NCBI RefSeq assembly: GCF_010692725.1
Contig: NZ_JAAFZB010000096.1
Span: 930,001-994,000 of the forward strand
Reading direction: 5' to 3'
Length of the DNA stretch: 64,000 bases
Source of the DNA: Flavihumibacter soli
Lineage (GTDB): Bacteria > Bacteroidota > Bacteroidia > Sphingobacteriales > Sphingobacteriaceae
Shown here: one piece after another, positions 23,454 to 34,645 of the stretch
Layout: each line of letters begins with the position of its first letter
Numbering within the stretch: position 1 is the stretch's first letter
Position numbers and translations under genes: made by a program
Notes under the pieces: generated by a model
What the model was told of the DNA's origin: nothing
The model's input: only the letters and a program-made list of their open reading frames with translations
Database searches by the model: none

Positions 23454-24077
23454 TTATACGGCTTCGGATAATGGAATAACTTCAGCTAAGGGGCTGAACA
23501 AGTAAACCGCCCCGCTTTTTAGTTCTACACAGCGATAACGTTTCCTTACCCGTATTTCCTTTCTGAATACCCGCCCGTTCTTCATCGAGAATAAGCTGCT
23601 CTCAGGCAATTTCTCTACACTGACGGTATTGTCACCCTCTGGCTTTGTATCGTAGCTCCTGAGCACCCTAAACAGGTTTAAATCAGTACAACTCGAAGCA
23701 GAAGGATTATTCAGATATGTTATGATCGCCCTCTGAACATCCTGCGGAAATGCATGTGCCTCAAAGAACGGTCTCATCATCTTTTTGAAATTTAGCTTCC
23801 ATTCAGTGCCATGCGGCTTTGCCTTACGCTTATGTTCGTTCCATGTCAGCAAGTGAGCAAACTCATGAACGGTTGTTACAAGAAAGGCGTAACGATTGAG
23901 ATTAAAGTTAACCGAAATCCGGTGTCCGCTTCCTTTAAACGGCGGCCGATAGTCGCCATACTTAGTATTGCGGTTTTTTGAAATTTTGAATTCGCATTGA
24001 AAGTAATCGATCCAGCGGCCAACTATGGGTGCTGTTCCTTCAGGCAGATATTTCTCAAGGATGCTTACTTTATCCAT
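23454..24077 (-). CDS. SprT-like zinc metalloprotease domain protein
   Basis: A 207-residue protein with a SprT-like zincin core. The HExxH site is H71/E72/H75 (VHEFAH), with a third candidate ligand H89 in KPHGTEW. The C-terminal third contains a KxGxxF-type beta segment ending in RKRYRCVELKSGAVYLF. SprT/Spartan relatives cut DNA-protein crosslinks, but the bacterial function is mostly unproven. It lies downstream of feoB with a 37-bp gap and may be carried on the feo transcript. Confidence 0.8.
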   Translation of the reverse strand: MDKVSILEKYLPEGTAPIVGRWIDYFQCEFKISKNRNTKYGDYRPPFKGSGHRISVNFNLNRYAFLVTTVHEFAHLLTWNEHKRKAKPHGTEWKLNFKKMMRPFFEAHAFPQDVQRAIITYLNNPSASSCTDLNLFRVLRSYDTKPEGDNTVSVEKLPESSLFSMKNGRVFRKEIRVRKRYRCVELKSGAVYLFSPLAEVIPLSEAV

Positions 24078-24114: not shown

Positions 24115-26229
24115 TTATTTCATCAACTGGTAGACGATAAGGCTGGAGATATATGCCATACCTGTCATGTATGCAAACTGGATTGCCGGCCATTTCCAGT
24201 GCTTAGTCTCACGGTATACAATTGCAATTGTACTTATACATTGCATAGCGAAAGCATAAAAGATCATCAATGAGAAAGCAACCGCAGCGGTAAATACAGG
24301 TAACCCGGTTTCGGGATCTTTTGCTGATTGCATTTTCTCGCGAACCGATTCCATATGTGCGTCATCTCCGTCAACGCTATAGATCGTGGCGATCGTTCCG
24401 ACAAACACTTCACGTGCTGCAAATGAGGTAATAAGCGCTATTCCGATCTTCCAGTCAAAGCCCAAAGGTTTTATAACCGGCTCAATAGATTTACCTAAAA
24501 TTCCGGCGTAGGAATTTTCCAGCTTCGATGAAGCCTTTAGCCGGTCCAATTCTTCCGGAGAGTAGCGTTCTGTGAATTCAGTGGCCTGATATTCCTTTTC
24601 AATCTGCTTGAATCGTTCTCCCGGGCCGTATGAAGCTAATACCCATAAGACGATAGATACGGCAACGATCACCTTTCCAGCTTCCAGCACAAAGGTCTTT
24701 ACCTTTTCATACATCGTCAGCGCTACATTATTCCACCGCGGCATCCTGTAGACAGGGAGTTCCATTATGAAGTAACCCCGTTCCCGAGATTTAATAATAT
24801 ATTTCATGACCAATGCCACCAGGATAGCACTGATAATACTGAGAACATATAAAGACATCAGGACAATACCCTGCAGGTTGATAAACCCGAAAACCTTTTC
24901 ATCAGGAACAACCAGCGAAATCAACAGTGTATAAACCGGCAGCCTTGCCGAACAGGTAATTAAGGGAGTTACCATTATCGTGATCATCCGGTCCTTCCAG
25001 CTTTCGATATTTCGGGTACTCATTATCGAAGGTACTGCGCAAGCAAATCCACCAATCATCGGAACAACCGATTTACCACTGAGACCTACCTTTCGCATGA
25101 TCTTGTCCATCATAAAAGTAACCCGGGCCATGTAGCCGGTATCTTCCAGGATAGATATAAACGCGAACAGAATAGCAATCTGTGGGATAAAAACCAGCAC
25201 ACCGCTTAAACCGGCTAAAATGCCGTCGATCAGCAAATCCGTAAACACCCCTGCTGGCAAATACTGATGGCCAGCTTCGCCAAGCCAGACGAACAATTGT
25301 TCGATCAGGCTCATGGGATATTCAGACCAGGCAAAGATTGACTGAAAAATGAGAAGCAGGATTACAAAAAAGATCAGGAATCCGAAGATTTTGTGTGTAA
25401 GTACCTTGTCAATACGATTACTTACTGTTTCCTGCTTTGCATCAATTTTCCGTGTAATGGTATCATATAATACCTCGTTAATGAAATTATAACGGGCGAT
25501 AGTCTCAGCTGCCTGTGCCTTTTGCGAATGAAAAGAAAACTCCTGCTCAATCTCTTCAATCCGGTCACTCTGATCCGCCGACAAAAAATGAAGCTGCTCG
25601 TGCTGATGGGCAAACTGCAGGGCTACATACGGAAGGTCTACCATCATCTCTGCCTGTATCTTCTGAACCAGACCCGGTGCTAAAGCCTCGACTTCGATAG
25701 ATTCAACCTGAAGAGGAATTTTGCCGGCATTACAAATCGCCTCCTTTAACTTATCAATGCCCTGTTGATTTCGGGCGGAAATAGGTATAACCTGAACTCC
25801 CAGCTTTCTTGACAGAGCATCAACCGAGATCTCCAATCCGTTTCGTTTTGCAAGATCCATCATATTTAAAGCTATGATTACCGGGATCTTGAGATCGGCT
25901 ATTTGTGTATAAAGGAGTAAGTTTCTTTTAAGGTTCGACGCGTCCGCTACAAAAACGATCAAATCGGGATGAACCGAACTCTTCTTATCAGCGAGAGCTT
26001 CCATCACGATCAGCTCATCCTTACTCTTCGGGTAAAGACTGTAAGTACCTGGAAGGTCTATTATTTGTGGAATCCGGCCGTCGGGAAGTTTACTGTAGCC
26101 GGTTTTTTTATCAACAGTAACGCCTGGAAAATTTCCAATCTTTTGGTTTAACCCCGTTAAAACATTAAAAAGAGTAGATTTTCCGGCATTGGGATTTCCA
26201 ATGAGAGCAATTTTAAAATCGCCGTTCAC
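24115..26229 (-). CDS. feoB: Ferrous iron transporter FeoB
   Basis: A 704-residue inner-membrane Fe(II) transporter. The N-terminal G domain has G1 (GNPNAGKS, 11-18), G3 (DLPG, 58-61) and G4 (NMMD, 122-125). A guanine-dissociation-inhibitor helix region and a C-terminal bundle of about eight TM helices follow, with paired Gate motifs, the second near SFAAREVFVGT. GTP hydrolysis gates ferrous iron uptake. It sits 3 bp downstream of feoA, so the two are one operon. Confidence 0.97.
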   Translation of the reverse strand: MNGDFKIALIGNPNAGKSTLFNVLTGLNQKIGNFPGVTVDKKTGYSKLPDGRIPQIIDLPGTYSLYPKSKDELIVMEALADKKSSVHPDLIVFVADASNLKRNLLLYTQIADLKIPVIIALNMMDLAKRNGLEISVDALSRKLGVQVIPISARNQQGIDKLKEAICNAGKIPLQVESIEVEALAPGLVQKIQAEMMVDLPYVALQFAHQHEQLHFLSADQSDRIEEIEQEFSFHSQKAQAAETIARYNFINEVLYDTITRKIDAKQETVSNRIDKVLTHKIFGFLIFFVILLLIFQSIFAWSEYPMSLIEQLFVWLGEAGHQYLPAGVFTDLLIDGILAGLSGVLVFIPQIAILFAFISILEDTGYMARVTFMMDKIMRKVGLSGKSVVPMIGGFACAVPSIMSTRNIESWKDRMITIMVTPLITCSARLPVYTLLISLVVPDEKVFGFINLQGIVLMSLYVLSIISAILVALVMKYIIKSRERGYFIMELPVYRMPRWNNVALTMYEKVKTFVLEAGKVIVAVSIVLWVLASYGPGERFKQIEKEYQATEFTERYSPEELDRLKASSKLENSYAGILGKSIEPVIKPLGFDWKIGIALITSFAAREVFVGTIATIYSVDGDDAHMESVREKMQSAKDPETGLPVFTAAVAFSLMIFYAFAMQCISTIAIVYRETKHWKWPAIQFAYMTGMAYISSLIVYQLMK

Positions 26230-26232
26230 TTA

Positions 26233-26448
26233 TTATTGCAGTATAATGGTCGAAGCTTCCAGCTTGCGAAGGCTTAACTGATATCCGGAAACTGTGATAG
26301 CCATAGGATCGCCAAGAGGAGCATAACGTTCAACAACGATTGATTCGCCAGGCAAACATCCCATCTCCATTAACTTAACTGACATTTCTAAATCTGTAAA
26401 CTCTTTGATTATGCCGGTTTGACCTGGCTCCAGTTGCGATAGCTTCAT
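26233..26448 (-). CDS. feoA: Ferrous iron transport protein FeoA
   Basis: A 71-residue FeoA with the SH3-like fold pattern: LEPGQTGIIKEF, MGCLPGESI and GDPMAITVSGYQLSLRK. It is a small cytoplasmic partner needed for FeoB activity. It is the first gene of feoAB and is preceded by a complete Bacteroidota promoter containing an inverted repeat. Confidence 0.95.
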   Translation of the reverse strand: MKLSQLEPGQTGIIKEFTDLEMSVKLMEMGCLPGESIVVERYAPLGDPMAITVSGYQLSLRKLEASTIILQ

Positions 26449-26465: not shown

Positions 26466-26497
26466 CAAAAATATATCTTATTTATATTAAATCCAAA
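26466..26497 (-). promoter_or_regulatory. feoAB promoter (TTTG-N20-TATTTTTG)
   Basis: On the minus strand a -33 TTTG (26494-26497) and a -7 TATTTTTG (26466-26473) are separated by 20 bp, an excellent fit to the Bacteroidota sigma-A promoter. The feoA ATG follows 17 bp downstream. Confidence 0.8.
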
Positions 26498-26501
26498 TAA
26501 G
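26477..26501. promoter_or_regulatory. Inverted repeat in the feoAB promoter, candidate iron operator
   Basis: CTTATTT (26477-26483) and AAATAAG (26495-26501) form perfect 7-bp arms 11 bp apart. They fill the promoter spacer and overlap the -33. A repressor bound there would block RNA polymerase. Iron-dependent control by a Fur or DtxR family protein is inferred from the gene downstream. Confidence 0.45.
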
Positions 26502-26534: not shown

Positions 26535-26672
26535 CTATCTTTTTGAAGCAAAAGATTTCCCAATGGGGTGTTTCGTGAAGTGCGGACAATCACATCCTTT
26601 CTTGAAAATACCACAGGATGAGAAGCTTAGCGCAATAACAAAAAGGAAGAATACTTTAAACCAGCTTTTCAT
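26535..26672 (-). CDS. Small lipoprotein, 45 residues
   Basis: A short gene read from ATG at 26672 to TAG at 26535. The product opens MKSWFKVFFLFVIALSFSSCG, a textbook lipoprotein signal with lipobox cysteine at residue 21. The mature part of about 25 residues has GIFKKGCDCPHF, with two more cysteines in a CxC. It overlaps the 3' end of the VanZ-like gene by 17 bp, so it is translationally coupled to it. Function is unknown; a membrane-anchored metal- or thiol-active peptide is one possibility. Confidence 0.7.
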   Translation of the reverse strand: MKSWFKVFFLFVIALSFSSCGIFKKGCDCPHFTKHPIGKSFASKR

Positions 26673-27051
26673 TGAATCTGAAACGATGTAAAAAAATATA
26701 ACCAAAAATACCCATACCTACACCTGTCATGTCACAAAAAAAGTCCCACCATTCGGCGGAGCGATAGGTAAAAACAGTTAGCTGTAAAATTTCAATTCCC
26801 CCGCCCAGCAATGTGGTTATCAAAAGGATCTTGAGAATGGTTATTATACGGTATGTGTAGCTCAGTTGTTGCCGGATCTTTCCATAAAAAAGCAGAACAG
26901 TCAACACGAAGAAGAACCCCAAATGAACAAGCTTATCAAAGCCTTCAAAGACAGGGATCCGCCCGGAACCCTTCATTGGTATATCACAAAGAATTAACAC
27001 CAATACCGCCCAAATTATGGCCAGATATTGGTGTTTCAGAGTATTAATCAT
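26656..27051 (-). CDS. VanZ family membrane protein
   Basis: A 131-residue protein with four TM helices. It carries VanZ-like features: D in GFDKLVHLGFFF and the ..EILQ...YRSAEWWDFFCDMTGVGMG motif. VanZ proteins are of unclear function; the founder gives teicoplanin resistance, and no other van genes are present. It starts exactly at the last base of gcvH, so the two genes overlap by one base and form an operon gcvH-vanZ-lipoprotein, a neighbourhood I recall from other Bacteroidota. Confidence 0.82.
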   Translation of the reverse strand: MINTLKHQYLAIIWAVLVLILCDIPMKGSGRIPVFEGFDKLVHLGFFFVLTVLLFYGKIRQQLSYTYRIITILKILLITTLLGGGIEILQLTVFTYRSAEWWDFFCDMTGVGMGIFGYIFLHRFRFNEKLV

Positions 27052-27431
27052 TAAGCGCCGACCTGTGACTGGTATTCCTCAGCAGATAAAAGATGCTCAA
27101 GGTCACCGGCTTCTGAAATGTCAATTTTTACCATCCAGCCTTCTCCATAAGGATCGCTGTTAACCAACTCAGGGTTGGTGTCCAGACTCTTGTTGAATTC
27201 GGCGATGCGACCGCTGATTGGCATGAAAAGATCAGAAACAGTTTTAACAGCTTCAACAGTCCCAAACACATCCTCTTTTTTGATCTCTTCGCCTACGGTA
27301 TTGATATCAACATAAACAATGTCACCTAATTCACGCTGAGCAAATTCTGTAATACCAATAACGGCCTGGCTACCTTCAACACGAATCCATTCGTGATCCT
27401 TAGTATACTTTAATTCTGGAGGGAAATTCAT
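27051..27431 (-). CDS. gcvH: Glycine cleavage system H protein
   Basis: A 126-residue H protein. Lipoate is attached at K63 in [15 protein letters not shown]. The opening [13 protein letters not shown] is typical. It shuttles the aminomethyl group between the P, T and L proteins during glycine cleavage. The gcvP and gcvT genes are not here, but glyA is near 55 kb. It has its own complete promoter and does not depend on sprA upstream. Confidence 0.97.
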
Positions 27432-27451
27432 TTTGCTAAAATTTAGTTGTT

Positions 27452-27482
27452 CAAAAATAGGATAAGTGCGTTGCTTTGCAAA
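27452..27482 (-). promoter_or_regulatory. gcvH promoter (TTTG-N19-TATTTTTG)
   Basis: A -33 TTTG (27479-27482) and a -7 TATTTTTG (27452-27459) are separated by 19 bp on the minus strand. The gcvH ATG follows 20 bp after the -7. Both elements match the Bacteroidota consensus perfectly. Confidence 0.82.
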
Positions 27483-27598
27483 TTAAGAATGATGAAATAC
27501 GGGCCCGACAAAATCTCATGGGAGTCTGCATTAAATTTTTTGACGATCAATCAGGTTAAAAATAACCATATTCAAACAACTCAATTTTCAATTACCAG

Positions 27599-30500
27599 CT
27601 ACTGCAGGGTAAATCTTAGGCTAACACCAAAGTTGCTGAACGAAGTATTGAACGTCTGAGAGGTATAGGGCTTGGTAATATTACCGTCATAGAACATACT
27701 GATATTAAATCGCTGGTTTAATACATAGTCGATAGACGGGTTGATGGTGATATTCTGCGCTCCTGAAGAAACTTCAGCGTCTTCGACGTCTGCCCGGAAG
27801 ATAATAGTTTTTCTGTCTCTCAATGCGAAGTCAAGTTTGAAGTTCATGTCGTTATTTATTTTTAGACCCCGGAACAAGCCAAAAGGAAACCGGAACTTCG
27901 TGGTACGAAAACCAAAACCGACTACTATTGCTTCTTCTTTGAGTTGAGCCAGCTGGCTGTTGGCGAGGCTAAAGCTTAGAGCTCTGGATTTACGATACTC
28001 CAAGTTGGTAGTCATGCCGTTGTTAAGTCGCATATCTACTCCGAGCAAAGGAATGAACTGTTCAAACAATGTTACCTGCGAAAATTGGTAACGGGGAAGG
28101 AAATCGCCGTTCGCATCCCTGACACTGACCGCACCATTTGCCTCTTGATACCTTAAAAGCGAATTAAATCCGTTGACGTTATATATCGACCTGTAGGCAT
28201 GACTAAGATCGAAAGAAGCGAACAACTCGCTGAAGAAATCATATTTGGTAAGCCCGTTATAATTTACATTCCAGTTAGGTACAGGAATTTTCGGAAATCC
28301 ACTCAGGCTAACCGTACCGGCATCTTTGCCGGTATAGGCTGCAAGGAATGCAGCGATCACCACATCCTGTGAATTTTTCCCATAACCTTCCGCAAATCCA
28401 CCCACGTTTCCAATAGAATTTGGGTTCTCTGTTCCGAGACGATTGGAAACTACCTGGCGATTGGCTTCAAACTGCCTGAAGAGCCTTGACGAATTATTTA
28501 TTTTGTTCTCCTTATCAAAAGCTGTACGCAGCGTAAAGTAGCTTATACTGTAATCACCAGTTGTAATCGGACTTAAATTTTCGAAGGAGTTACTGGATGG
28601 CAGAAATCTGAAGTTCGTGGAGTAATTGAAGTTTTTTGTACGCTGGCCAATCAGCTCTATCCGGAAATCCCTGAAAGGCTCAAAAATTCCCCGGTAGCTA
28701 ATGTCTTCTTTGTCGTTAGTTACATATAGCTGGCTTTGAAGCGAATCCGTTGTGATCCACCCGTTTGCCAGAGCACGTCCCCTGATGTCGCGCTGGCTGC
28801 CGAACACAAAGTCATAGCCAGGAGCGTTGGCATCCAAATCCTGGCCTAAAAAGTCCGTTTCAGGAAGGTAACCCGGCAAAAAGGTACCCTCTGTGCGCGT
28901 ATATGCGCCGGTCACATTCTTCAAGCCTGTTACAATATTCAGCAGGAAATTTCCAAAATTATTATTGCTTGCATTATTAGCCTTACGAAGGAAACCGAAC
29001 TTATTGTAAAGCGCAACCATGCTGAGGGTAGGGTTTACTTGCATAATCCGTGTGTTTTGGATTGCGTTTCCAAAATCTATCTGAGGATCTCTAAGCGTGA
29101 GCAGCGGTTCGCTCCTCCAGTTATAATTGGAGCCGTAACGCGTTGCAAGGCTGACCCAGTTCAATGCCGGAATCTTATTTAGGGGAACATTGTACGTGAG
29201 ATTCAATGTATGTCCGTAGTCGGTAGTACGTCCCAGTCTTTTCAGGTTATTCCAAATAGTATCACGAGCGTCTTCATCAACACGGCCCGCAGGTTCATCT
29301 ATAATAGAATAGTTCGTTGCATTAAAGTCCAACTGCACTGACTTCGTTAAATTCCAGCTGATGCCATATAAACGGGTCATCAGGAAGTTCTTGTTGAAAG
29401 TGGTCATAGCCGGCAAAAAGTTATTCGGATCGTTGTTGCGCAGGGTGTTCTCCGAATACAGACGATCCACATCTATCCGGAAGTTCAAAACGGAAGGAAG
29501 CAAACTAAAATTAAAGTCCTTAATAACGCCCAGGCTTTTTGATTTAATTAGCTTGTCAAAAGGGGTAACTGACTTAGGTTGATTCGAGTAATTATATGCA
29601 AGGCCTGCCCGGTATGATTTCTGTATTGTCCTCTCATTAATAAAATCGCGGTGGTTATATTCATTGAATGCATAAGTCCCGCTCCAGTTCTCAATATCCC
29701 AGAATCTTACAGGGGCATCAGTAGTTCGTATCTTGCGGACATTGGTAAAGTTGAGACTTCTCCTGGTGGTGTAGTCTTCCGTATTGAACCTGATCGAATC
29801 CCTCACATGCTCCGGTGAATTTCTTAATACAGTCTTTAGTTCAATATCCGGAGTTCTTGGGTCATACTGCGGAGTTCCGACCTGCGAAGAGTAGTTAACG
29901 AACATCGGGATCTTTATTCCCGAGCGGTCGGAGAAAAACTTACCCAGCTCGACACTCGAAGATAAATCGAATAACAGATCATCTGCCCGGCTTCGCTCAC
30001 CTACCCTCTTATCTATGGAGCCAAAACCGATAGTGCTTTTACTTCCCGACAGAGTAACATCAGCGAAATCGGCAAGTTGGGCATTCAATCTCGCTGTTGC
30101 GGCCCAGCCCCCACGCTCGTCGAAGTCGGTAAGCCTAAGTTCATTAAACCAGACCTGGACCGATTTATCCAGCCCATCATCAGGGCCCGGATTAGCCTGG
30201 TTACGCAGAGGGTTACGCACGCCGAGCATATAAACGCGGACCTTACTGAGGTCTGGCTGTCCCAGCACTGTGATGGAGCTTAAACCTTCCGTGTAAGTAA
30301 ACGGAACATTGATCGGCCAGGGTTGCCCGTTCAATACTGCATTGTTTCGAGCGGTCTTAGCGATCTTGAATAAATTGATATCGATATCCAGCCTGTTTTG
30401 TTCGGGCCAGATGACATTTGGATCACGGGAACCGGGAGTGGTGATCTTTAAGGGCAGGTTATATTCATAGTAATTATCCTGATTATCGGAACCTACCCTG

Positions 30501-33500
30501 ATAAAAGCGCTGACCTCATTATCACCGACTAAATCGCCCTCGGCATGGATAAACATTTCCATACGACGGTATGACCTGAAATCATTAAATGTAGTCCGGT
30601 AGGCTGCCCTTCCGTATCCATCTCTCAAGTTTTTTACAGTCACGGCAAGTGACTGTTCGTTCTGCTGGGTCTCGCCCCTGAAGTTACTGAAATCACGTTC
30701 GCGTTCGATCCCCGGTGGAACGACATACGGTATGGGTGTGCGCCGTCCATTCTCCTCTATATTGATAGTTGTAACTTCAAGCGTCGAATTGTCAATACCG
30801 GGATTAATTAAGGCCGGATCCGCGATAACCTTTGCCGGGCTATTTTCGGTGTTATACCTGCGCCACTCACCACGTACCAGCTGAAGCTTGCCAAAGCGCA
30901 TAACGGTGGTATCAGCAAAGCCGGTCATGAACATACGGATGAAACGGATCGATTTAAAATCCTGGATATTGCCCACCTTTTCCTTTATCTCAGCAAGGGG
31001 AATCTTAAACTGTATCCATCGAACCCTATCCGTGCTTCCATTGGCCAGTTTTACTTCTGCAGGTACAATATCAACCACGTAGTTGGAGCCAATTGTAAGC
31101 AGGTCCTGGGGGCGTATCGAAACTTTATATTGAAAATACTCATCTGCCTGGGTGGAATTATTATCCCTGTTAATATCTTCTCCGTCCGGCAGAGGTGTTC
31201 CAGCCGAATTCTCAATACCGGTCTGATCCAGGGATTGCTGAGTAGTTTTAGAATTCCCTTCACTTCCGTTATATCGCTCATATCGCTTTAAAATTCCTGC
31301 ATTTAAGTCATCCAGGTTTCCGCCAAGATAGTACTGGTAATCATCTGAAGCCGGATCGACTTCAAGTGCCTGCGCGGCCGTAGCATTAACCTGTGTTCGC
31401 ACCTGGTTAAGAAATGCAGAAAACTGTTGTCTTTCATCGCCGCTACTCAAGCCATCAAGCCCGATATCCTGAAACTGCCTGGCATCCGGATTATTATCGA
31501 ACGCCTGGATAACAGGTTGTAGCTTAGGAACGCGTCCCCATATAGTCTGATCAGTCTTGGACAGGTCTCCATCAACCGGTAAACCGTTCTCCAATCCCTT
31601 TCGTCCGTCCTTTAAAATATCCTCTGATATATTCCCAAGGTTAATATAAAGATCGCCCCCCTGGCTATTGGGCTCGTAGAGAAATGGATCCAGTACCCAC
31701 ATCTCAACAAACTCAATATTAAGCGATTCAAAATCAGTTGTTTCCAGCTTTCGAAAAATACCACCCCAGCGGCTTTGCGGGTTGGTCAGGCTTCCATCCT
31801 GGTTTAAGCCGGAGGTTGTAAAGTTATATGGCCCCCGCAAACTCGGATAATAGCTTAAATCAAACGTGGGCAGCGTCAGGGGTTGGCCTGTGACAGACTG
31901 CTTGAACGGAAATACTTCCCTTTCAAATACTTCCCTCACATAGTGGTTGGAAAGCTCAGATTTGTTGCCTTTGATATTGTCAGGAGTTGACGAATTCTGG
32001 GTCCTGAAAAAGATCGGGTCGATATTATAGAAAGCGAGGCGCGCCCGGTTAAAATTGTAGGACAGATCATTTATAAGCTGTGCTTCCGGAAACAATTGCG
32101 GCGTACCGGAAATCTGCCAGGGAGTTGCGCTTTTAATATCGATAACGGAGCGGCTTGCTTCAAAATCGTCCAGGTAGCTGGCACCGTTTGAGCTGCCCGC
32201 AAAGTTTAATGCAGAGGGATGGCCGGGTATCAGGTTAGCATATTCGCCGCTGAACGTTATGGACGAAGGTTCCTTGGTATTAATGAATGGCAGCTTGTCA
32301 ACCATCCGGGTTAGCCAGCGCGACTCCGAATTATAGTTCAAATCTAATCCCCATATAGTATTAGAGATCGCTTCCTCCCCGATATTCATCTTTTGAGTAA
32401 GCGGTTTCTCTGTCAGGTTCATTATGGTACCGCCGAGATTCAGCTTATTGTTAACACGGTAATCAAACCTCGAGCCCATTAACGATTTCTGCTGTATCCC
32501 AAAAAGCTCATTGTTTTCAAGCCTGATCCGGATAGGTTGCCCGGAATTTAAAAGGGCCTGGTTGAGTATCCGCACACGGCCGATGTTATAGTCAACCGTA
32601 AAGTCGGCGCCCTCCTGTAAAGGCAGGGTTCCGGCAACAACCTGGACTGACCCCTGCGGTATATTGATCGCATTCAGTTGAAACTCTGAGCCTGCCTGCG
32701 ATTGGTATGTGCCCTGAATGTAATAACGGTTAAGCTTCTGAAAAAGCTGCTGGGCCTCCACTTTGGTCGAGTCATACAAAGGCTGGAAAACATATCGATC
32801 AATAAGGGCCTGCTCTGTTAGCGGATTAAACTTAGCGGCCAGGTCCGCGCCGAACGGTTCTACCTGCGGAAACGTAATTCTCCCATTCAGGGGATCGATC
32901 GTTATGCCTTCGATAAAGTCAAAAAAACCGTCCGGAACCCGGTCGTTCTGCTGATTTAAGTTATCCAGGTTTGTCAACTGCAGCCACAACTGCCCAGTTG
33001 TATTCACACCTTCGGTGATCTGTGGCATCTCGACACCGGAATTTTCATCCAACCTGAACACGTTGAGCCGAAAATCGTTACGGCTAACCTGGTATGCCCC
33101 TAAGGAGTAAATGTTCTTCATCATCAGATCCCAGGTCGGCAGGTTAGTCTTCAATGTTTCATTTTTCAGAAGTTTGACAAACAAAACTTTCGGACTTGCA
33201 ATATCTACCGGAACGTCGCTTGACAGTTCGCCCACCTGATATTCAACACCGTTGACAGTATACCTGTAAGCAACTGCCAGCACCTCATCAGCATTCAAAG
33301 CAGAATTTAAGGAAATATAACCTAGCTGACTGTTCAAGGTAAATTCCCTGTCAGTTAATTTGCGGGCATAAGTCAGCTTCGAAAAGTTATCTGTGCCTCC
33401 AGTAGCCTGGAAATAAGCATTTACATCATTCGAATTCGTGAGTCTCACTCCCGGGGGAAGATTTTGCAATAAATTATTCGACTGCTGCGGAAACCCCGGT

Positions 33501-34645
33501 CCGACAAAGCCGGCAGGCAATACCGAAAAGCCGGCGCCTCCCTGTACCTGGGTTGTATTATAAGGCTGGTTCTCCCCAAGATCGATGAGTCCCAGCACAT
33601 CGCGCGAGTCAGAAGTGCTGCTTAAACGGTTCGTCACCCATACTTCGATCTTCGTGATATTAACATTGGACGTTATAACCGGGATATTCGAAAGGGCATT
33701 ATTGTAATTATTTCTGAAATACTGGGCCAGGAAGTAATGTTTATTCACCTCATAATTATCGGCAGAAATGCGAAACTCATTTTGTTGTGATCCGTTGGTA
33801 ATGGTAATTTCCTTTGACTGCGATTTTTGCTGCGAAAAAATGCTGGTTACATTCAGACGGCCAAACTGCAGTTGTGTTTTTAATCCAAACAGTGACTGAC
33901 TGCCGGTGATCAGGCTGGAACTTAAAGGCAGGCTAACATTGCCCGCTTCTATCTTTTGGATGATCTCATCCTCTCTACCGGTATAATCTAATTTTATTTG
34001 GTTCTCAAAATCAAACTGCGCTTCGGTATTATAATTAGTCGTGATTCGCAGCTTATCGCCTATCTGGCCCACCACATTCATTTGAATCCGCTGGTTAAAA
34101 TCGAAGTTCCCCTGATTACGCTGCCGTTCATTGAACAGCGGATTTTCATTACGGTTAAGTCGTCCTGCGAAAGTCAGTTCAGCAGAACCCTGCGGACGTA
34201 TGTCAATGGTTGAGCCTCCGAAGATCTTTTCGAACGTTTTGCTGTTTACCTTAACCGGCGGAATAAAACCAGGAGCCCGTGCCTCAGCTAGGGGGAGATC
34301 TGAAAGCTCACGCCAGTAATTCCTCTTGATTATCTGGTTTTCAAGGCGCTGGTATTCCTCGATACTGAGATACTGCGGTGGCCTGTAAAGCCGGTCACCA
34401 AGCCGTTCTCTTATAATGTACTGTTTGCTTATCGGATCAAACTCTACAGTTCTTCGGATATTTGACGGATTTGGCAGATAGATACCCGGAGTTCGCTGGA
34501 CTGGAAGAGTCTTGTAATCTTTAAATGGATAAGCCAGTTTAACGGTATCAGTTTGAGAGCTGGTATTCTGCGCTTTTACCGTCCCCCCCGATAATGTCGC
34601 AAAAAAACATACTTTCAGTAATATAAAAGCAAAAGCGTTTTTCAA
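27599..34645 (-). CDS. sprA: Type IX secretion translocon / gliding protein SprA
   Basis: A 2348-residue outer-membrane protein, full size for SprA. A signal peptide (about 1-26, ending VKAQ) is followed by the SprA N-terminal region with QYLSIEEYQRLE and TIDIRPQGSAELTFAGR, long alternating beta-strand stretches, and a C-terminal aromatic strand (NFGVSLRFTLQ). SprA forms a very large single-chain beta barrel through which T9SS cargo leaves the cell, with a lateral gate. The order ruvA-sprA-gcvH is a Bacteroidota hallmark. Other T9SS genes lie outside the window, so gliding itself is not shown. It is 23 bp downstream of ruvA, likely co-transcribed. Confidence 0.97.
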   Translation of the reverse strand: MKNAFAFILLKVCFFATLSGGTVKAQNTSSQTDTVKLAYPFKDYKTLPVQRTPGIYLPNPSNIRRTVEFDPISKQYIIRERLGDRLYRPPQYLSIEEYQRLENQIIKRNYWRELSDLPLAEARAPGFIPPVKVNSKTFEKIFGGSTIDIRPQGSAELTFAGRLNRNENPLFNERQRNQGNFDFNQRIQMNVVGQIGDKLRITTNYNTEAQFDFENQIKLDYTGREDEIIQKIEAGNVSLPLSSSLITGSQSLFGLKTQLQFGRLNVTSIFSQQKSQSKEITITNGSQQNEFRISADNYEVNKHYFLAQYFRNNYNNALSNIPVITSNVNITKIEVWVTNRLSSTSDSRDVLGLIDLGENQPYNTTQVQGGAGFSVLPAGFVGPGFPQQSNNLLQNLPPGVRLTNSNDVNAYFQATGGTDNFSKLTYARKLTDREFTLNSQLGYISLNSALNADEVLAVAYRYTVNGVEYQVGELSSDVPVDIASPKVLFVKLLKNETLKTNLPTWDLMMKNIYSLGAYQVSRNDFRLNVFRLDENSGVEMPQITEGVNTTGQLWLQLTNLDNLNQQNDRVPDGFFDFIEGITIDPLNGRITFPQVEPFGADLAAKFNPLTEQALIDRYVFQPLYDSTKVEAQQLFQKLNRYYIQGTYQSQAGSEFQLNAINIPQGSVQVVAGTLPLQEGADFTVDYNIGRVRILNQALLNSGQPIRIRLENNELFGIQQKSLMGSRFDYRVNNKLNLGGTIMNLTEKPLTQKMNIGEEAISNTIWGLDLNYNSESRWLTRMVDKLPFINTKEPSSITFSGEYANLIPGHPSALNFAGSSNGASYLDDFEASRSVIDIKSATPWQISGTPQLFPEAQLINDLSYNFNRARLAFYNIDPIFFRTQNSSTPDNIKGNKSELSNHYVREVFEREVFPFKQSVTGQPLTLPTFDLSYYPSLRGPYNFTTSGLNQDGSLTNPQSRWGGIFRKLETTDFESLNIEFVEMWVLDPFLYEPNSQGGDLYINLGNISEDILKDGRKGLENGLPVDGDLSKTDQTIWGRVPKLQPVIQAFDNNPDARQFQDIGLDGLSSGDERQQFSAFLNQVRTQVNATAAQALEVDPASDDYQYYLGGNLDDLNAGILKRYERYNGSEGNSKTTQQSLDQTGIENSAGTPLPDGEDINRDNNSTQADEYFQYKVSIRPQDLLTIGSNYVVDIVPAEVKLANGSTDRVRWIQFKIPLAEIKEKVGNIQDFKSIRFIRMFMTGFADTTVMRFGKLQLVRGEWRRYNTENSPAKVIADPALINPGIDNSTLEVTTINIEENGRRTPIPYVVPPGIERERDFSNFRGETQQNEQSLAVTVKNLRDGYGRAAYRTTFNDFRSYRRMEMFIHAEGDLVGDNEVSAFIRVGSDNQDNYYEYNLPLKITTPGSRDPNVIWPEQNRLDIDINLFKIAKTARNNAVLNGQPWPINVPFTYTEGLSSITVLGQPDLSKVRVYMLGVRNPLRNQANPGPDDGLDKSVQVWFNELRLTDFDERGGWAATARLNAQLADFADVTLSGSKSTIGFGSIDKRVGERSRADDLLFDLSSSVELGKFFSDRSGIKIPMFVNYSSQVGTPQYDPRTPDIELKTVLRNSPEHVRDSIRFNTEDYTTRRSLNFTNVRKIRTTDAPVRFWDIENWSGTYAFNEYNHRDFINERTIQKSYRAGLAYNYSNQPKSVTPFDKLIKSKSLGVIKDFNFSLLPSVLNFRIDVDRLYSENTLRNNDPNNFLPAMTTFNKNFLMTRLYGISWNLTKSVQLDFNATNYSIIDEPAGRVDEDARDTIWNNLKRLGRTTDYGHTLNLTYNVPLNKIPALNWVSLATRYGSNYNWRSEPLLTLRDPQIDFGNAIQNTRIMQVNPTLSMVALYNKFGFLRKANNASNNNFGNFLLNIVTGLKNVTGAYTRTEGTFLPGYLPETDFLGQDLDANAPGYDFVFGSQRDIRGRALANGWITTDSLQSQLYVTNDKEDISYRGIFEPFRDFRIELIGQRTKNFNYSTNFRFLPSSNSFENLSPITTGDYSISYFTLRTAFDKENKINNSSRLFRQFEANRQVVSNRLGTENPNSIGNVGGFAEGYGKNSQDVVIAAFLAAYTGKDAGTVSLSGFPKIPVPNWNVNYNGLTKYDFFSELFASFDLSHAYRSIYNVNGFNSLLRYQEANGAVSVRDANGDFLPRYQFSQVTLFEQFIPLLGVDMRLNNGMTTNLEYRKSRALSFSLANSQLAQLKEEAIVVGFGFRTTKFRFPFGLFRGLKINNDMNFKLDFALRDRKTIIFRADVEDAEVSSGAQNITINPSIDYVLNQRFNISMFYDGNITKPYTSQTFNTSFSNFGVSLRFTLQ

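Follow-up and report, generated by a model that had tools for sequence, protein, structure and literature searches.

FeoC-type accessory proteins of the Feo system are cytoplasmic, and the SWIM zinc finger carries further Cys and His residues. A small lipoprotein, LptM, can govern the maturation of an outer-membrane translocon, according to the portion of the study accessible to us (PMC10567701). For lipoproteins bound for the cell surface, the accessible part of the literature defines the export signal (LES) as K-(D/E)2 or Q-A-(D/E)2 after the Cys in Capnocytophaga, and gives the consensus SDDDD or SDDFE in B. fragilis and F. johnsoniae (PMC5080379). Here we describe a predicted lipoprotein of 45 residues with a conserved Cys pair, encoded beside feoA in Flavihumibacter soli. 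The window analysed is a stretch of 64,000 nucleotides (contig NZ_JAAFZB010000096.1, positions 930,001 to 994,000); the features discussed, numbered from its first letter, are collected in Table 1.

Table 1. Features of the lipoprotein locus, in window coordinates.
Feature	Position	Strand	Details and basis
Lipoprotein gene	26535..26672	minus	ATG start at 26672, TAG stop at 26537-26535, 45 aa; translation and orthologs
Type II signal peptide, codons 1-19	26616..26672	minus	Lipobox SFSS/C; sequence, conserved in alignment A1
Mature peptide, codons 20-45	26538..26615	minus	Lipid Cys20, basic linker, Cys pair, variable tail; translation and alignments
C-D-C-P core, codons 27-30	26583..26594	minus	Both Cys and the Pro invariant across the 18 rows of A1 and the 20 genus orthologs
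VanZ-like membrane protein	26656..27051	minus	PF04892, E 1.6e-7; overlaps the lipoprotein gene by 17 bp
gcvH	27051..27431	minus	PF01597, E 6.6e-43; upstream in the same gene run
sprA/sov, T9SS outer-membrane translocon	27599..34645	minus	TIGR04189, 2633 bits; upstream in the same run
feoA	26233..26448	minus	PF04023, E 6.1e-20
feoB	24115..26229	minus	TIGR00437, E 2.4e-164
SprT-like gene	23454..24077	minus	PF10263, E 4.6e-6; recurrent neighbour of the family
Operator-like palindrome	26478..26500	minus	TTATTTGGATTTAATATAAATAA, between the lipoprotein gene and feoA; 20/20 genus loci
TAnnTTTG promoter element	26466..26473	minus	TATTTTTG, 25 nt before the feoA ATG; 20/20 genus loci

A short lipoprotein gene maintained in the genus

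Translation of the minus strand across the gene yields MKSWFKVFFLFVIALSFSSCGIFKKGCDCPHFTKHPIGKSFASKR, followed by a stop. The product begins with the hallmarks of a type II signal peptide, namely an N-terminal basic residue, a hydrophobic stretch and a lipobox ending in Cys (LSFSS/C20), and continues into a 26-residue mature part that contains GCDCPHF, with the cysteine pair arranged as C27-D-C29-P30. C20 is invariant in alignment A1, whose 18 rows came from plain tblastn and were chosen independently of any motif. We infer from the lipobox sequence that the mature protein is lipidated at this residue. A longer, TTG-started form of the gene proved superfluous, the ATG at 26672 being the start conserved among orthologs.

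Searches of 41 genomes, comprising our own and its relatives, returned a match at E ≤ 10 in 35, including all 20 of the genus; each of the 19 other genus genomes searched holds an ortholog, with best E values from 6.2e-12 to 1.4e-4. The gene lies between vanZ and feoA in all 20 genus genomes, our own included, and its overlap with the VanZ frame is likewise kept in every case (17 bp in 15 loci, 11 bp in four and 4 bp in one). Pairwise comparison of the 20 genus orthologs gave pN/pS values of 0.50 for residues 7–19 (signal peptide), 0.165 for residues 20–32 (core) and 0.86 for the tail; pS approaches saturation, which makes these ratios rough and leaves only the contrast between regions readable. 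Across the 13-codon core, variable columns at codon positions 1, 2 and 3 number 7, 4 and 13 of 13, respectively, while the other two reading frames contain stops in 4 and 20 of the 20 rows. The lipid Cys, both later Cys residues and the Pro are invariant in the 20 genus orthologs and in A1, where the evidence for the motif is non-circular; the rows of alignments A2 and A3 were partly picked by motif, so the invariant Cys and Pro found there are not independent evidence.

Together, the orthologs, synteny, pN/pS and codon-position pattern rule out a chance open reading frame and provide good support for a real, conserved gene whose Cys core is under purifying selection. The first-pass annotation, made from the sequence of the window, had claimed a 45-residue lipoprotein gene here, and the orthologs, fixed gene order and selection within the genus bear it out. 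Its claim of a 17 bp overlap with the VanZ frame is also correct, that frame ending at 26656, and the check that it had proposed, conservation of the lipobox and the Cys pair in orthologous loci, gave a positive result.

Distribution and architecture across Bacteroidia

Beyond the genus, a 38-row profile detected a family member in at least 151 of 295 Bacteroidia genomes (E ≤ 1e-4). Earlier profiles had returned at least 99 (18 rows, E ≤ 0.01) and at least 136 (29 rows, E ≤ 1e-3) of the same 295; up to 24 candidates per genome were scored in these searches, and all three counts are therefore lower bounds. A draw of 148 genomes from the phylum, class members among them, gave eight matches, all eight in class Bacteroidia. 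For the analysis of anatomy and neighbours we used all matches to the 29-row profile at E ≤ 1e-4, which amount to 113 loci from 111 genomes and 35 families, with the other 32 of 145 rows excluded.

In the shared architecture, a type II signal peptide leads to a Cys predicted to be lipidated; a basic linker of only 5–14 residues connects it to the motif C-x(1-3)-C-P-x-[F/W], behind which comes a variable tail or almost nothing, some members stopping directly behind the motif (for example, ...KKCDCPRL). The lipid Cys followed by C-x(1-3)-C-P is present in 108 of the 113 loci, a count that is partly circular, as are the other class motif counts, the profile having been trained on such sequences. 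The five loci lacking the full motif also lack any recurrent neighbour. Among the 108, the Cys residues are separated by one residue in 59, by two in 47 and by three in 2, and the second position after the Pro is occupied by W in 40 and by F in 38. The linker contains two or more basic residues in 107 of these loci and an acidic residue (D or E) in 22. The tail is Lys-rich (14%) and contains His in 65 of the 108 loci, at 5.3% overall vs 1.8% in neighbour proteins; that background is drawn from neighbouring proteins, not from small lipoproteins, and the excess is only suggestive. In the window protein, the linker G-I-F-K-K-G contains no acid and thus no LES, as far as that signal is defined in the accessible part of PMC5080379. 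Because the linker is basic and the acidic surface-export signal is absent, the lipoprotein is predicted to face the periplasm.

Two pattern searches complement the profiles. A DNA-pattern scan of named genomes found at least 119 stretches, and among the 119 listed a signal-peptide-like stretch precedes the first Cys in 87. VanZ or GcvH upstream, or FeoA downstream, accompanies 81 of these 87 vs none of the 32 without such a stretch, again among the matches listed. The 87 divide into 35 with VanZ or GcvH upstream only, 16 with FeoA downstream only, 30 with both and 6 with neither. The pattern itself required Cys and Lys, so their conservation in this set is no evidence; the signal peptides do count, as do the neighbours, which were not used to find the loci. 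A regular expression built on the anatomy recovered 100 of the 113 loci and produced no match in 1.43 Mb of flanking control strand-bases.

Several individual loci depart from the common form. At L296 (G167:C9), two family matches stand in tandem on one strand (91166-91300 and 91521-91658). Loci L233 (G253) and L109 encode cousin small lipoproteins with a C-terminal CGCPNK(R/K)G(L/M)VGY, and the L233 cousin gene adjoins a gene that, on reading its sequence, resembles a glycosyltransferase gene.

Gene neighbourhoods

On the minus strand of the window, the order is sprA, gcvH, vanZ, the lipoprotein gene, feoA, feoB and the SprT-like gene. FeoA is found in at least 282 and MlaE in at least 285 of the 295 class genomes; because both are near-universal, their presence is uninformative, and it is adjacency that carries information. 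Adjacency of feoA was counted on the 113 fetched loci themselves, the FeoA profile matches listed being a partial set: in 61 loci from 19 of the 35 families, feoA lies downstream in the same orientation at a distance of up to 2 kb, and in 59 loci it is at most 400 bp from the match. A divergent mlaE, with an ABC ATPase gene beside it, lies no more than 500 bp upstream in 59 loci from 20 families. A SprT-like gene lies downstream without feoA in 22 loci (six families), and 21 loci have no recurrent neighbour at all. VanZ is upstream in seven of the 113 loci, all of them in the window's family, where seven of eight loci have it. The gcvH gene occurs within 4 kb in all eight loci of that family and in six loci of family f16 (L202, L265, L266, L273, L276 and L283), the latter without VanZ, and sprA occurs within 4 kb in three loci, all of the window's family.

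Pairing with VanZ as a general rule is rejected by these neighbour counts over 35 families; the VanZ link is lineage-specific. Adjacency to feoA is real but not obligatory. When the regular expression was applied upstream of feoA in 56 profile-negative genomes, two of these regions being shortened by contig ends, it found five further members and no match in the other 51, and the idea of a universal companion of feoA is accordingly rejected. This count is slightly low, because G076, counted among the 51 negatives, shows by eye a similar open reading frame that ends in KCDCPHL and has no ATG in the frame read; the region upstream of feoA in G217, also read by eye, contains no such frame.

Other arrangements were seen among the loci. 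In loci L180–L292, the recurrent arrangement has mlaF-mlaE pointing away from the lipoprotein gene on one side and feoA-feoB and/or the SprT-like gene following on the other; some of these loci continue with a gene that, from its sequence, resembles one for a mannose-1-phosphate guanylyltransferase (cluster 7) or an aminotransferase (cluster 4). In many Sphingobacteriaceae loci, sprA, gcvH and vanZ are joined by the lipoprotein gene in a single same-strand run (26535 to 34645 in the window), such that the T9SS translocon gene stands ahead of the glycine cleavage and VanZ genes. At L286 (G031:C2:55588-63689), the lipoprotein frame continues into that of FeoA with no stop between them, leaving 190 codons open, possibly as an odd fusion of an exported and a cytoplasmic part. 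FeoA matches in open frames of about 800–900 codons, probably fused FeoA-FeoB, occur without a lipoprotein match in G131, G163, G194, G056 and G097, while G117, G150, G191 and G181 have both a long FeoA frame and a lipoprotein match.

A palindrome and a promoter element ahead of feoA

The gap between the lipoprotein gene and feoA contains a palindrome, of the form TTATTTGG...AAATAA in the genus, and the motif TAnnTTTG, which we take to be the Bacteroidota -7 element, 26–27 nt after the palindrome start in all 20 genus loci. A looser version of the palindrome is present in 13 of 55 lipoprotein-feoA gaps from five families (six of the 13 in the window's own family), compared with 0.14 expected from mononucleotide shuffles, a mild control, and in none of 55 stretches of 200 nt before the lipoprotein match. 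The remaining 42 gaps do not contain it, and the rule is therefore shown for some families only. Related forms of the palindrome appear in other families, for example TATTTAGA-N5-TCTAAATA. Among 44 loci outside the window's family, TAnnTTTG occurs in the gap in 22 and, in 29, within the 160 nt that precede the profile match, with 3.2 expected in each case under the same mild control.

The palindrome and TAnnTTTG (26466-26500) may together constitute a metal-responsive operator upstream of feoA, and where the palindrome is present the feo operon seems to begin downstream of the lipoprotein gene. The lipoprotein gene itself seems to lie outside the palindrome regulon, because the motif occurs in the gap and in none of the 55 regions before the lipoprotein gene. 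Judged by these motifs, the gene adjoins feoA-feoB but appears to have no promoter or operator in common with them. Since both elements stand between its coding sequence and feoA, the lipoprotein gene looks like a neighbour of a regulated feo operon and not like a subunit of it.

Possible functions

We favour, with a probability of roughly 0.4, a reading in which the lipid-tethered, periplasm-facing thiol pair is a transition-metal site. The lipidated protein would project into the periplasm on its short basic linker and hold two thiols close to the membrane, where they could coordinate a transition metal, Fe(II), Zn or Cu(I), in a site perhaps completed between two copies or with a partner. 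The protein would then serve the envelope as a small metal buffer or relay tethered to the membrane. Expression is probably driven by the gene's own promoter in many families and would come from the end of the sprA-gcvH-vanZ run in Sphingobacteriaceae; given these arrangements, the lipoprotein may act constantly beside the metal-regulated Feo importer, and not as a VanZ partner. A metal site is preferred because the variable Cys spacing fits coordination better than redox chemistry, the tail is rich in His and, of the downstream genes found, feoA is the commonest. Against it, a monomer with two Cys residues could not complete a tetrahedral site, mlaE adjoins the gene about as often as feoA does, and the gene order may reflect inheritance rather than function; in addition, the feo promoter is separate and the lipoprotein is kept in the 22 SprT-like loci without feoA. 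The first-pass annotation had suggested that the protein binds a metal next to the feo operon. The prominence of feoA downstream, the Cys pair and the His-enriched tail suit the metal part of that suggestion, which is a prediction, but the link to the operon is loosened by the palindrome and promoter that follow the lipoprotein gene and by its survival where feo is not a neighbour.

Sequence does not separate a metal site from a redox role, and the chief competitor is a thiol-disulfide helper, in which the tethered Cys pair would reduce, isomerise or guide disulfides during outer-membrane assembly, possibly of SprA here. In its favour, the CxC or CxxC pair would sit near the membrane, the window gene ends a same-strand run containing sprA, and LptM, which helps LptD gain its native disulfides in E. 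coli, provides a small-lipoprotein precedent in the part of PMC10567701 available. The same source, however, proposes that LptM mimics LPS binding and does not use a Cys pair of its own; sprA is a near neighbour in only the three loci of the window's family, and spacings of one, two or three residues (59, 47 and 2 of 108) are, we infer, unlike a conserved redox active site. On balance this role is possible but doubtful. More doubtful again is an extension of the metal reading, a dedicated, lipid-tethered two-thiol relay of about 25 residues at the conserved mla/feo crossroads that would pass metal across the periplasm or guard the outer membrane from it; if true, the protein would rank with the smallest lipoproteins that handle metals and would have escaped notice for being so short.

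The remaining readings tie the protein to one neighbour each. Contact with the divergently encoded MlaE/MlaF system would account for the mlaE and ABC ATPase genes upstream in about half of the loci, but a divergent gene does not share an operon, vanZ is the upstream gene in the genus, the best MlaE match of genome G000 is on another contig, and a peptide of 20–30 residues cannot be a lipid channel, all of which makes a Mla partner improbable. A dedicated periplasmic Fe(II) donor for FeoB, that is, an accessory subunit of Feo, is a little more improbable: the downstream position of feoA in 19 families speaks for it, whereas the promoter element and operator-like motif that separate the two genes, the persistence of the lipoprotein where feo is elsewhere and the 51 of 56 feoA loci in profile-negative genomes without a detectable copy speak against it. 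Least probable of all is a protein pair with VanZ acting together in the envelope, which the first-pass annotation had put forward as one option. An overlap is indeed conserved in all 20 genus loci, and Pedobacter loci retain the lipoprotein beside VanZ with feo not adjacent; over the class, however, VanZ is upstream in a single family and the lipoprotein persists without it. A pairing inferred from one gene overlap can thus be lineage-specific while the wide set of neighbours differs.

Relation to known families

The window protein scored under the cut-off of every Pfam and NCBIfam model listed in library scans, and for the 29 members of A2 the best matches were to SWIM in Pfam (E 0.0045) and PG1828 in NCBIfam (E 0.0099). 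A profile search of the PDB gave nothing below E 0.28; of the five sequences at E 0.28–0.88, two were fragments of Notch 1, two were YifL/LptM, matched in the signal-peptide end, and the fifth was a lytic conversion lipoprotein. The literature within reach, with subscription journals mostly beyond it, contained no account of the family or of a feo-linked lipoprotein. Because the models stayed below cut-off and neither the PDB search nor this literature supplied a description, the proteins look like a new, apparently undescribed family of very small lipoproteins. It occurs in about half of the sampled Bacteroidia without a model in Pfam or NCBIfam, and with its conserved Cys pair and recurrent feo/mla address it gives work on metal or redox biology of the envelope a small, concrete target.

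Likeness to described lipoproteins lies in the signal peptide. LptM (YifL; NF047847) is also a small lipoprotein with a similar signal peptide, and the matches are confined to that end: the window protein scores 12.7 bits against a cut-off of 27.7, over residues 1–21 only. The PG1828 family (NF050142), which shares the small-lipoprotein signal peptide, likewise aligns with residues 1–21 only, at 12.7 bits against a cut-off of 50. The SWIM zinc finger (PF04434) has a similar CxC core and matches 4 of the 29 A2 members weakly, the best being the E value given above, but the window protein has no reported match to it at E ≤ 0.1, and the further Cys and His residues of the finger are not conserved in the lipoprotein family. 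FeoC-type accessory proteins resemble the family in being encoded beside feoA-feoB. Set against them by their general properties, not by direct comparison, the present protein differs in being a predicted secreted lipoprotein whose gene is followed by a promoter element and an operator-like motif before feoA.
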